Source of the DNA: Aeromicrobium sp.
GTDB lineage: Bacteria; Actinomycetota; Coriobacteriia; Anaerosomatales; Anaerosomataceae
DNA length: 64,000 nt
NCBI GenBank assembly: GCA_015351705.1
Contig: JADIIM010000024.1
Coordinates: forward strand, 1 to 64,000
Direction: 5' to 3'
Shown here: positions 28,950 to 33,072 of the stretch, one piece after another
Layout of the letters: each line of letters begins with the position of its first letter
How positions within the stretch are numbered: position 1 is the stretch's first letter
The notes under the pieces: model-generated
Databases searched by the model: none
Seen by the model: the letters and a program-made list of their open reading frames with translations, nothing else
Told to the model about the DNA's origin: nothing
Program-made: the position numbers and the translations under genes

Positions 28950-29035
28950 GTCCGAGTGGCGGAATGGCAGACGCGCTAGGTTGAGGGCCTAGTGTCCTTA
29001 GGGACGTGCGAGTTCAACTCTCGCCTCGGACACCA
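28950..29035 (+). tRNA. tRNA-Leu (anticodon GAG)
   Basis: An 86-base class II tRNA. Acceptor GTCCGAG pairs with CTCGGAC; the anticodon stem CTAGG/CCTAG closes loop TTGAGGG, giving GAG for CUC/CUU codons. A long variable arm (TGTCCTTAGGGAC region) is present as expected for leucine. The T loop GTTCAAC is standard, and CCA is encoded. Confidence 0.95.
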
Positions 29036-29043
29036 CACATGAG

Positions 29044-29076
29044 CAGGGCCCCTGCCCCACGAGGGTAGGGGCCCTG
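29044..29076 (+). terminator. hairpin after tRNA-Leu
   Basis: CAGGGCCCCTGCC (29044-29056) pairs with GGTAGGGGCCCTG (29064-29076), one G-U pair, seven-base loop. It starts nine bases after the CCA end. U tail is weak. A hairpin sharing the AGGGCCC stem base follows tRNA-Cys at 58381-58410. Confidence 0.65.
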
Positions 29077-29227
29077 AGTCGTCCGCGGGCCTTGTCGTCT
29101 GTCACTGGCAGCCCTGGATCGTGCCGACGGTCTCTGGAGGGCGCCGTGCCGCCGCGCGTCTGCTGGTGTCCCTGTCGGTTGACTTAAGGAAGATGTACAA
29201 TGGCGTTCGCCGACCCAGGAGGACTTG

Positions 29228-29842
29228 ATGAACCGACGTGTGCTCATTCTCGTTATCGCAGCGACGATTCTCATCGGCGCTGTAGCCGTCTTCGCCCTCA
29301 GGTCGGGCGGGGCCGATGACGCCGTTGTCCAGGACCCCGGTACCGGCCTCGGCTCGCTCGAGCCGACCGCGTCGGGCGGCTCCTCTATCGACACCTCGAC
29401 TGCCGATGCCTCGACCGCCGAGGGCGGCCAGCGCGAGACGACCGACGGCGAGGCCGCGCGTCCTGTCGTGCCCGTGCCCGAGGGGTCCGCGATCAGCGGC
29501 GGCTCCTCGGACTCGTCCGACCCTTCGTCCGGCGACGGTGGGTCCGGTGACACGGCCAAGCCCGCGCAGCCGGTCCCGGTGGGGCTGAGCGAGGAGCAGC
29601 GCAAGGCCGTCTTCTGGGACCTCATCGCCGCATGGGACCGTGCGGTGCTCGAGGCGGAGAAGGCGTTCCCGTTGAGCGCCGACAACCCTGACGTGGTCGC
29701 TCACGTGAAGCTCAGGATGTCGCTCATCGCCGAGTACGAGGCCGAGATCATGGACGAGTACGACATCACGGCCGCACAGCTCGAGACGATCTACAACGAG
29801 GGCATAGCCAAGCGCTGGCCCATGCCTCCGTACGAGGAGTAA
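29228..29842 (+). CDS. membrane-anchored extracytoplasmic protein, function unknown
   Basis: A 204-residue protein: an N-terminal uncleaved or signal-type helix (residues 4-22, after MNRR), then a low-complexity linker rich in Ser, Asp, Gly and Thr (about 28-115), then a roughly 75-residue helical domain from GLSEEQRKAVFWDLIAAWD to the end (RWPMPPYEE). The domain has an acidic, coiled appearance and no family I recognise. AGGAGG precedes ATG 29228. The linker suggests the domain is held away from the membrane at the cell surface. Confidence 0.7.
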   Translation: MNRRVLILVIAATILIGAVAVFALRSGGADDAVVQDPGTGLGSLEPTASGGSSIDTSTADASTAEGGQRETTDGEAARPVVPVPEGSAISGGSSDSSDPSSGDGGSGDTAKPAQPVPVGLSEEQRKAVFWDLIAAWDRAVLEAEKAFPLSADNPDVVAHVKLRMSLIAEYEAEIMDEYDITAAQLETIYNEGIAKRWPMPPYEE

Positions 29843-29897
29843 CGCGCCGCGTATCGACGTGCCGGTCGTAACGCTCACCGTGCACGCTGGCCGGCGG

Positions 29898-29903
29898 TAT
29901 ACT
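29898..29903 (+). promoter_or_regulatory. -10 box TATACT before the radical-SAM-like gene
   Basis: TATACT lies 30 bases before the GTG at 29933, followed by GG as in several other promoters of the window. The -35 region is not conserved. Confidence 0.5.
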
Positions 29904-29932
29904 GGTGACCCGGCCATCGATGGGGAGCGCGC

Positions 29933-30640
29933 GTGCTTGAGTTCGTGAGGGTGGAGGTTGGCGAAGGGTCACCGCCCGGCTGTAGCCGCTGCGCGCCGGC
30001 CGTACCGGCCACGTACCACGACCTTGATCGTCTCGCGGAGGACATTGCGCACGCCGTTCGAACGCCCTCCGGTTCTGTCGCTCAGGGCCTGCTGCTCAGC
30101 GGCCCGGACCCGTTCTCACACCCCGCGCTTCCGGCTGTCGTTGAAGCCTGTGTGAGTACCGGCGTACCGCGTATCGGCATCGAGACGGCCGGCACGGCGC
30201 TTTCCGTACACGGGAATGCGGCGGGCGTGCTCGCTGCCGGGGTACGGCACCTGTTCGTCCGGGTGCTGTCGGGTGACGCGGCAACCCATGATGGGCTCGT
30301 GGGGCGCCCGGGAGCGCTCTCGGGAGCGCTCGCCGGCATCGCCACCTACCGCGCCGCCGCCGTGGAGGCCGACGTGCCGTGTGTCGTGACAGGAGTCGTC
30401 CCTGTCTGCCGCCACGTCCGCGACGCGCTTCCCCTGACAGTCGCCGCGCTTGCGCGAGCGGGAGTCGACGCCGTGCGCCTCGTGGAGGGCCGTGACCCGG
30501 GAGGCCAGGCGGCTGCGGCCATCGCCGCTGCGTGTGACACGGGGATGGTCAACCGCGTGTGGGTGGAAGTGTCGCCCGCGCTGCCGCTCCCGGCCTCCCA
30601 CGCGCTCCACGTCCTGGACCCGGGGGTGAGTGATGGCTGA
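29933..30640 (+). CDS. radical-SAM-like TIM-barrel protein lacking the CxxxCxxC motif
   Basis: A 235-residue protein whose layout follows radical SAM enzymes: LLLSGPDPFSHPALPAVVEAC resembles the GGEP-containing strand, IGIETAG resembles the ETNG strand, and VRVLSGDAATHDGLVGRPGA resembles the usual SLDG/HD region. The cluster loop should hold CxxxCxxC but has only CSRC (Cys17, Cys20). It therefore either cannot bind a standard [4Fe-4S] cluster or is a partner protein. The next gene, a B12 radical SAM protein, overlaps it by eight bases, which suggests the two products work together. Confidence 0.55.
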   Translation: MLEFVRVEVGEGSPPGCSRCAPAVPATYHDLDRLAEDIAHAVRTPSGSVAQGLLLSGPDPFSHPALPAVVEACVSTGVPRIGIETAGTALSVHGNAAGVLAAGVRHLFVRVLSGDAATHDGLVGRPGALSGALAGIATYRAAAVEADVPCVVTGVVPVCRHVRDALPLTVAALARAGVDAVRLVEGRDPGGQAAAAIAAACDTGMVNRVWVEVSPALPLPASHALHVLDPGVSDG

Positions 30641-31910
30641 GCCGTTGAAGGTCGTCTTGCTCGCACTCAACGCGCCAGGATACCAGTCCCTCGCGCTCGG
30701 CTACCTGCGCGCATACGCCGAGTCGGACCGCAGGCTGCAGGGCCGAGTGGCGTTCCAGACGCTCGATCTTTCCTCCGCCGATGATGCGTGGTGGGTCGCG
30801 TACCGGGTGGTCGGACTCGAGCCCGATGTGCTCGCAGTCTCCGTGATGTGTTGGAACGCGCGGCAGGTCTACGACATCTGCCGAATCGTGCGGACGGCGC
30901 TTCCGGAGACGCGCATCGTCCTCGGCGGGCCGGAGGTCGGCCCCATCGCCGCGGAGGTGCTCGATACCCACCCGGAGGTCGAGGCGGTCGTGCGCGGGGA
31001 GGGCGAGGAGGCGTTTGCCGACGTGCTCGATCTCGCGCGGAGGGGCAAGCCCTTCACCCGGGCTGACGGTGTGACGGCGCGCGATGCGTCAGGAGAGCCC
31101 GTTGCCGCACCGGACCGCGCTCTCATCGCCGATCTTGACACCATCCCGTCGCCGTACCTGAGTGGTGTCATGGAGCCCGCGGAGGGCGTCGCCTATATCG
31201 AAACGTACCGCGGGTGCCCTCACCGCTGCGCGTACTGCTTCGAGGGCAAGGGGTACGGTCGGATCCGGTCGTTCGGGCGTGAGCGTGTCGCCGCGGAGAT
31301 CGCCCACCTCGCCGGAGAGCGCGGGATACGCGCGTTCTCCTTCATCGACCCGGTCTTCAATCTGACCGATGAGCGCCTGGCCTGGCTCTCGGACACGCTT
31401 GCGCCGTTCGCGGCGCGCGGCACGCGGCTGCACACGGTGGAGGTGGACATCCAGCGCATCGATGATGAGGCCGCCGCGCTTCTGGTGCGCGCGGGGGTGG
31501 AGTCGGTTGAGACGGGTCCGCAGACTATCGGTGCCGAGGCGCTCGAGGCGTGTCACCGCCCCTTCGACGCCGGCCGGTTCGCCGCAGGCGTCGCTGCGCT
31601 CAAACGTCGCGGGATCCCGGTGGAGTGCGACCTGATCGCCGGCCTGCCCGGTGACACGGCCGACGACTTCCTGGCGGGCGTCGCGTTCGTCCTTTCGCTC
31701 GACCCCGGCAAGATCCAGACGTCCACACTGCACGTGCTTCCTGGTACCGAGCTCTACGTGCGCGCCGAGGAGCTCGGCTTGCGGTTCGATCCCGAGCCGC
31801 CGCATGAGATCGTCGCCACATCCACCATCGGCTTCGCCGACCTGCGTCGCCTTGAGGCGCGCTCGATCCACCTCGCCCGCGTCTACGCCGCCCGATTGAC
31901 AGGAGTCTGA
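30633..31910 (+). CDS. B12-binding domain radical SAM protein
   Basis: A 425-residue enzyme: an N-terminal cobalamin-binding Rossmann domain (about 1-140, with VLLALNAPG, ALGYL, VSVMCWNA and LGGPEVGP), and a radical SAM TIM barrel (about 185-400) with Cys195, Cys199 and Cys202 in CPHRCAYC. The helix ALEACHRPFD and AGLPGDTADDF resemble the YgiQ/DUF4080-type group. Such proteins do methylations or unusual ring chemistry; the substrate is unknown. ATG 30633 is preferred over the GTG three bases before. It is translationally coupled to the preceding gene. Confidence 0.85.
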   Translation: MAEPLKVVLLALNAPGYQSLALGYLRAYAESDRRLQGRVAFQTLDLSSADDAWWVAYRVVGLEPDVLAVSVMCWNARQVYDICRIVRTALPETRIVLGGPEVGPIAAEVLDTHPEVEAVVRGEGEEAFADVLDLARRGKPFTRADGVTARDASGEPVAAPDRALIADLDTIPSPYLSGVMEPAEGVAYIETYRGCPHRCAYCFEGKGYGRIRSFGRERVAAEIAHLAGERGIRAFSFIDPVFNLTDERLAWLSDTLAPFAARGTRLHTVEVDIQRIDDEAAALLVRAGVESVETGPQTIGAEALEACHRPFDAGRFAAGVAALKRRGIPVECDLIAGLPGDTADDFLAGVAFVLSLDPGKIQTSTLHVLPGTELYVRAEELGLRFDPEPPHEIVATSTIGFADLRRLEARSIHLARVYAARLTGV

Positions 31911-31911
31911 C

Positions 31912-33072
31912 GTGCCGCCCGTCTCCCATCGAGCAGAATCGATCCGCCCGTTCGTCGTCATGGATGTCGTGGCGCGCGCCAAGGAGCTCGAGGCGGCCGG
32001 TCGCGACATCGTGCGGCTCGAGATCGGCGATCCGGACTTCGCGACACCTGAGGTCATCGTCCGTGCTGCCGAGGCGGCCATGGATGCTGGCGACACAGGC
32101 TACACGCAGTCTCTCGGACTGCCTGGCCTTCGCGATGCGGTCGCGGGGCACATGCATGATTCCTACGGGGTCGATGTCGACCCCGCGGACATCGTGGTCA
32201 CCCAGGGCACATCGCCCGCGATGCTGCTGTTGTTCGGGTCGCTTCTCGACCCCGGCGACGAGGTCATCATGGCCGATCCGTGCTATCCGGCGTATCCCAA
32301 CTACGTCTCGTTCCTGGGCGGTGTTCCGGTGCCCGTGCGTGTACGCGCCGAGGAGGGCTTCCGCTTCCGCCTTGACGAGGTCGAGCGCGCTGTGACGGCC
32401 CGGACCAAGGCGATCATGATCAACTCGCCCTCGAACCCCACCGGCGGTGTTCTCGGTGCTGAAGACCTGACCGGTCTCGCCGCCATGGCCGAGCGCCACG
32501 GGCTGTGGCTTGCGAGCGATGAGATCTACCACGGGCTTCAGTTCGAGGGACGGTCGCACACCGTTCTCGAGTTCACCGACCGCGCCTTCGTGCTCAACGG
32601 CTTCTCGAAGGCCTATGCGATGACCGGCTGGCGGCTCGGATACCTGATCGCGCCGCGTCAGTTCGTGCGTCCCGCCGAGAAGATCCAGCAGAACTTCTTC
32701 CTGTGCGCCAACCACTTCGTGCAGGTGGCGGGTACCGCAGCGCTCCTGCACGCCCAGGCCGACGTGGCCCGCATGCGTGCCGTCTACGGCGAGCGCCGCC
32801 GGTACCTGGTCCCCGCGCTCCGCGAGGTCGGGCTCGGGGTCGCCGTCGAGCCGGCCGGTGCGTTCTACGTGTTCGCCGATGCTCGCGCTTGGGGCGCGGA
32901 CTCCATCATGCTCGCCGAGCGTCTGCTCGAAGAAGCGGGTGTGGCCGCTGCACCCGGAGTGGACTTCGGGCCGGGGGGAGAAGGGTTCCTCCGGTTCAGT
33001 TATGCTACATCGATGGAGCGATTGCAGGAGGGGGTCGCACGTCTGGCCGCGTGGGCAGGTACTTCAGTGTGA
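31912..33072 (+). CDS. class I/II PLP-dependent aminotransferase
   Basis: A 386-residue fold-type I aminotransferase similar to aspartate/aromatic aminotransferases (AspC/PatA type). Visible are the N-terminal EIGDPDFATPE, NSPSNPTGGVL with the PLP-contacting Asn, SDEIYHGL with the pyridine-contacting Asp, the Schiff-base lysine in NGFSKAYAMTGWRLGY, and an arginine in GFLRFSYA for the substrate carboxylate. GTG 31912 follows AGGAG one base after the upstream gene, so it belongs to the same operon. Donor and acceptor cannot be assigned. Confidence 0.9.
   Translation: MPPVSHRAESIRPFVVMDVVARAKELEAAGRDIVRLEIGDPDFATPEVIVRAAEAAMDAGDTGYTQSLGLPGLRDAVAGHMHDSYGVDVDPADIVVTQGTSPAMLLLFGSLLDPGDEVIMADPCYPAYPNYVSFLGGVPVPVRVRAEEGFRFRLDEVERAVTARTKAIMINSPSNPTGGVLGAEDLTGLAAMAERHGLWLASDEIYHGLQFEGRSHTVLEFTDRAFVLNGFSKAYAMTGWRLGYLIAPRQFVRPAEKIQQNFFLCANHFVQVAGTAALLHAQADVARMRAVYGERRRYLVPALREVGLGVAVEPAGAFYVFADARAWGADSIMLAERLLEEAGVAAAPGVDFGPGGEGFLRFSYATSMERLQEGVARLAAWAGTSV

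Follow-up and report, generated by a model that had tools for sequence, protein, structure and literature searches.

The thuricin CD sactisynthases TrnC and TrnD, two proteins of radical-SAM fold, form a stable complex. When both radical-SAM motif cysteines of TrnD are mutated, TrnC still yields the fully modified peptide, and in the published model TrnD binds the leader peptide (PMC12093266). In this system one of the partners can do without its radical-SAM cluster, its main role being to hold the leader peptide. Radical-SAM pairs in which the chemistry of one member can be dispensed with, such as TrnC/TrnD, are only now emerging. The genes investigated here, ORF1 and ORF2, encode paired radical-SAM enzymes of this known type with an unusually complete evolutionary series. 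TrnC and TrnD both retain CxxxCxxC and SPASM clusters, and no B12 enzyme is among them, whereas the pair studied here joins a B12 enzyme to a partner from which the motif was lost naturally. For ORF1 and ORF2, a complex is predicted from a model. Within the open literature, a scope that leaves out most subscription journals, we found no description of a pseudo-partner of this kind.

The source genome sits with MAGs of Anaerosomatales, an order of Coriobacteriia that has been described previously (PMC9686372). In the window (the whole stretch of 64,000 nucleotides analysed), ORF1 (29933..30640, + strand) encodes a degenerate radical-SAM-fold protein of 235 aa with a GTG start, and ORF2 (30633..31910 including the stop, + strand) encodes a B12-binding radical-SAM enzyme of 425 aa from the ATG at 30633. 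The two genes overlap by 8 bases, and ORF3, a class I/II aminotransferase and syntenic neighbour (31912..33072, + strand), begins 1 base past the ORF2 stop. Window coordinates and domain matches thus agreed with the original prediction as to the overlap, the intact three-cysteine motif of ORF2 and the adjoining aminotransferase. Within the surrounding region (28950-33072), a tRNA-Leu(GAG) gene (28950-29035) lies just upstream of the block of oligopeptide-transporter genes and ORF1-ORF2. Between this tRNA gene and ORF1, a 205-aa secreted-looking protein rich in Ser, Gly and Asp is encoded (29225-29842, + strand); it had no convincing family match and was not found at the same place in relatives.

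ORF1 did not match the Pfam Radical_SAM model (PF04055; gathering score 29.5 bits) and was absent among the 19 Radical_SAM matches of a genome-wide scan. Residues 49-153 were weakly matched by several NCBIfam radical-SAM models, among them HxsC4 (8e-9) and AhbD (3e-7). The AlphaFold2 model of ORF1 (pLDDT 94.4, pTM 0.91) resembled the radical-SAM barrels of DesII, Mmp10, BlsE, SkfB, MoaA, NifB and viperin (Foldseek against the PDB, E down to 8e-9). By its fold, a partial TIM barrel, and by its homology to the intact partners L035, L036, L116 and L117, ORF1 is a radical-SAM protein; it lacks, however, the three-cysteine motif of a functional radical-SAM enzyme, with S13 (29969..29971, + strand) replacing the first cysteine. 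Cysteines 2 and 3 of the former CxxxCxxC persist as C17-S-R-C20 (29981..29992, + strand; invariant in 49/49 relatives), in keeping with the earlier description of a radical-SAM barrel that retains CSRC alone. The C-terminal CxxCx5C (SPASM/twitch) motif was also absent from the window ORF1. A radical-SAM-like family labelled pseudo-SAM by NCBI, the haloarchaeal pseudo-SAM/SPASM protein TIGR04347, was no close match (19 of 525 bits), and we know of no B12 partner for it. HxsC and HxsC4, the maturases of the His-Xaa-Ser system, gave the best NCBIfam matches of an intact ORF1 relative (L090; 91 and 72 bits, far under the cut-offs of 500 and 268 bits). They too are paired radical-SAM proteins, but ORF1 is paired with a B12 enzyme, and we saw no gene of a His-Xaa-Ser system.

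The loss of the motif is not a peculiarity of the window. Among the 49 relatives from the order that cover the motif region, position 13 was never cysteine and C17 and C20 were conserved in every sequence (49/49), so the loss is not due to chance. We estimated dN/dS ratios in eight pairs by the Nei-Gojobori method and obtained 0.14-0.50 for ORF1 and 0.05-0.18 for ORF2. These ratios indicate that ORF1 is under purifying selection and constrained less tightly than ORF2. The lost motif and the faster evolution of ORF1 could point to a decaying pseudogene or, as regards the missing cysteine, to a sequencing error. Yet the reading frame is open in all relatives, dN/dS is well below 1 and the cysteine pattern recurs in 49 sequences; with a negligible probability left to pseudogene decay or sequencing error, we regard both, as well as chance, as ruled out by the dN/dS values and the shared pattern.

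ORF1 relatives with a complete CxxxCxxC were found in four pairs from other Actinomycetota families (G363, G390, G301 and G312), in which the motif reads CNNDCVLC, CSNECKHC, CNNNCVNC and CLNSCSFC, respectively. These four proteins also bear a C-terminal CxxCx4-5C twitch motif, and right behind each of the intact ORF1 genes lies an ORF2 relative with 39-46% identity to the window ORF2. Over the first 20 residues the alignment is free of gaps, with C13-C17-C20 in the intact proteins opposite S13-C17-C20 in the window; by this alignment, it is exactly the first cysteine that ORF1 has lost. Scores of ORF1 relatives against Pfam Radical_SAM were graded, from 39-41 bits in the intact proteins through 27, 18 and 16 bits to no match. 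The twitch motif was kept in 10 of 50 relatives from the order and in 5/5 pairs outside it. In the ORF1 tree, lineages with the twitch motif diverge earliest and the short forms group in one clade, so a single loss of the twitch motif is sufficient. These alignments and trees show that the ancestor of ORF1 was a complete radical-SAM/twitch enzyme already paired with ORF2, and that in Anaerosomatales the radical-SAM motif was lost first and the twitch motif later in most lineages.

In the fifth pair from outside the order (G062), the ORF1 relative is without the whole cluster loop, with RIYIDADRPFDD at the cysteine site, but still has the twitch motif, and ORF2 adjoins it. The ORF2 tree placed G062 as sister to the intact G301 pair (support 99/94), in agreement with a quick tree, and a topology forcing G062 together with Anaerosomatales was rejected (AU p = 0.0012). 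Judged by these trees, the loss of the cluster loop in G062 is independent of the loss in Anaerosomatales.

A scan of a genome collection was applied to the order. ORF1 relatives were detected in 56 of 61 genomes (E <= 0.001; a few of these are distant radical-SAM matches only) and ORF2 relatives in 53 of 61 (E <= 1e-30). Where one gene seemed to occur without the other (G028, G036, G046 and G048), the gene lay at a contig end in every case; in G004 the two were on separate contigs, again with a gene at a contig end. Both genes were missing from three near-complete genomes (G032, G040 and G049). Assembly gaps aside, a genome has either both genes or neither. We collected 55 distinct pairs with ORF2 directly 3' of ORF1, and the genes overlap in 44 of them (exactly 4 bases, n=27; 8 bases, n=10). 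The sole pair with a long gap is L014 (G021), where ORF1 is intact but its ORF2 neighbour reads in two separate frames, through either an assembly error or a break in the gene. Conservation of the pair, a check named in advance, is therefore borne out by 55 pairs and across Anaerosomatales. Two genomes carry two copies (L095 and L096 in G056; L081/L092 and L019/L105 in G031) and the pair therefore has paralogues. One copy in these genomes is long, twitch-bearing and outside the syntenic block; the other is short.

The aminotransferase was considered as a third member of the unit, which the comparison did not support. It lies 3' of the pair in most Anaerosomatales loci, within a long syntenic block. 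In most loci of the order, an oligopeptide ABC transporter, the ORF1-ORF2-aminotransferase-PHP protein genes and thioredoxin follow in nearly the same order. However, the aminotransferase does not adjoin the pair in L081/L092, L090, L091, L094 and L095, and none was seen beside the other pairs from outside the order. Several loci, and the other lineages too, have the pair but no adjoining aminotransferase. The gene therefore does not belong to the conserved unit, and its absence beside the pair also rules it out as a pathway partner. Clustering the neighbours of 49 loci and inspecting the loci outside the syntenic block singly revealed no common substrate gene; what lies next to the pair differs between loci (gyrase, IF-2/NusA, ParA-type iron-sulfur ATPases, aspartokinase). 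A lipid substrate was also considered. Cultured Anaerosomatales have ordinary fatty acids and quinones were not detected (PMC9686372), and these data gave no lead to such a substrate.

ORF2 contains a B12-binding domain (PF02310; 30804..31025, + strand) and a Radical_SAM domain (PF04055; 31197..31673, + strand), both above the Pfam cut-offs. Its C195-x3-C199-x2-C202 motif (31215..31238, + strand; within RGCPHRCAYC) is present in 55/55 pairs. This combination of a B12 domain with a radical-SAM domain carrying CxxxCxxC is that of cobalamin-dependent radical-SAM enzymes. The nearest solved proteins are CysS and TokK, and W74 (30852-30854, + strand; conserved in 52/54) aligns with Trp76 of TokK, which lies under the cobalt and characterizes the class B enzymes TokK and CysS. 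By domain content, the tryptophan and the best sequence and fold match, all shared with the TokK/CysS/KedN5 methyltransferases, ORF2 is identified as an intact B12-binding radical-SAM enzyme of this kind. Unlike ORF2, these methyltransferases carry a C-terminal domain, and with 168 of 700 bits ORF2 fell far short of the NCBIfam cut-off for KedN5. With 425 aa, ORF2 ends where TokK (681 aa), CysS (645 aa) and the DUF4080 proteins (567-589 aa) enter their C-terminal domain. The DUF4080 domain (PF13311) is complete in Priestia and Treponema homologues but not found in ORF2, where a match of just 29 residues scored 11.2 of 22.9 bits. The ORF2 of an intact pair (L036) aligned with the Priestia protein at 29% identity across the B12 and radical-SAM domains. 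A plasmid search beyond the phylum returned distant B12 radical-SAM proteins only, with under 34% identity, and at the two annotated plasmid loci inspected the DUF4080 protein stands alone with no ORF1-like neighbour. PLSDB also lists as a plasmid NZ_CP154629.1 (L129), a chromosome-sized replicon of 2.63 Mb from Acetoanaerobium noterae with nearly no annotation.

In one relative (L088), ORF1 and ORF2 are in frame with a single TAG between them, and read-through gives a natural fusion of 714 residues. We modelled this fusion with AlphaFold2 from an alignment of 55 rows. The tethered model, which is that of a relative, has four paired rows and is read without PAE or an unrelated-pair control, reached a pTM of 0.84 and a mean pLDDT of 88.9, with a disordered tether of 58 residues (237-294) between the folds. 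By our own estimate, two folds lacking a defined mutual position would give a pTM of ~0.6 (TM d0 ~9.2 A for a chain of this length). Because 0.84 exceeds this value, the model places the folds with confidence and suggests that ORF1 and ORF2 form a heterodimer with a predicted interface. The proposed modelling of the pair as a complex thus yielded a defined, predicted interface, for this one relative. A Foldseek search with the fused model aligned ~425-445 columns to CysS/TokK and did not inform on the position of ORF1.

Taken together, we favour, with a probability of about 0.6, the explanation that ORF1 is an obligate accessory subunit in a heteromeric cobalamin-dependent radical-SAM enzyme with ORF2. 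The enzyme, composed of these two subunits, would probably be a methyltransferase. ORF2 would bear both cofactors, the B12 and the SAM-cleaving [4Fe-4S] cluster, and perform the radical and cobalamin chemistry. ORF1 would have given up SAM cleavage with the first cysteine, most lineages later losing the twitch cluster as well, and its barrel may have been kept to bind or position the substrate or to cap the active site. Since ORF2 has only 425 aa and is without the C-terminal domain of its relatives, ORF1 may stand in for this domain. The original suggestion that a pseudo-radical-SAM partner presents substrate or acts as a scaffold is well supported by the conserved pair, the predicted interface and the TrnC/TrnD precedent; the link to the aminotransferase and the term 'clusterless' are not. 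The conserved pocket residues and the operon organization would also fit a separate enzyme that acts in the same pathway by other, non-radical chemistry without being an ORF2 subunit. We consider this improbable, as the strict one-to-one pairing, the overlapping genes and the tethered model favour a complex.

The term 'clusterless' requires qualification because CxxxCxxC is gone, but only its first cysteine was lost and other Cys and His residues are invariant, so that absence of a cluster was an inference. Across the degenerate clade (50 relatives from the order, with 39% mean pairwise identity), ten ORF1 columns are fully invariant (M1, C17, C20, G57, H63, R80, G103, G135, C159 and H161), and five of these are Cys or His (C17, C20, H63, C159 and H161). 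G57 and H63 (both 50/50) belong to G57-P-D-P ... H63, the remnant of the GGEP SAM-binding motif (30101..30121, + strand). C159-R-H161 (30407..30415, + strand; 50/50 in the degenerate clade) closes strand beta-5. Around C201, the AACDTG motif is variable in L093, L103, L096, L099, L100, L102 and others, and a C-terminal His of ORF1 also varies in some of these lineages. As AACDTG varies while C17, C20, C159 and H161 are constant, C201 is probably not an essential ligand.

These residues raise the possibility, which we consider less likely, that C17, C20, C159 and H161, possibly joined by H63, make up a re-ligated metal or Fe-S site in what was once the SAM pocket. Such a site could serve electron transfer to ORF2, structure or a SAM-independent reaction. 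A metal is suggested because a purely structural scaffold would not need these four residues. Residue 159 follows directly on the fifth barrel strand (151-158) of the AlphaFold2 model and should therefore lie on the active-site rim, and His161 is found only where the first cysteine was lost, being absent from intact relatives. Electron transfer between radical-SAM proteins has a precedent (PMC10470005). On the other hand, one of the intact relatives already carries Cys at position 159, which makes C159 alone not diagnostic, and the loop-deleted protein of G062, if functional, works without these residues. A histidine at the position equivalent to 63 is, moreover, common in GGEP regions. More doubtful still is the fuller version, in which ORF1 would have rebuilt a metal site from CxxC and C159-x-H161 and become a cofactor subunit feeding electrons or substrate to ORF2, with the loop deletion in G062 as a convergent loss of SAM cleavage.

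For an accessory ORF1 subunit, it becomes testable whether the substrate-binding domain of a cobalamin radical-SAM methyltransferase can be handed over to another protein. The evolutionary series is visible from the intact partner, through forms with the motif lost and the auxiliary cluster kept, to forms that have lost both, in addition to the independent loop deletion. This series makes it possible to test what the radical-SAM fold adds beyond SAM cleavage. In this order of deep-subsurface bacteria, a dead radical-SAM fold has apparently become a helper subunit.
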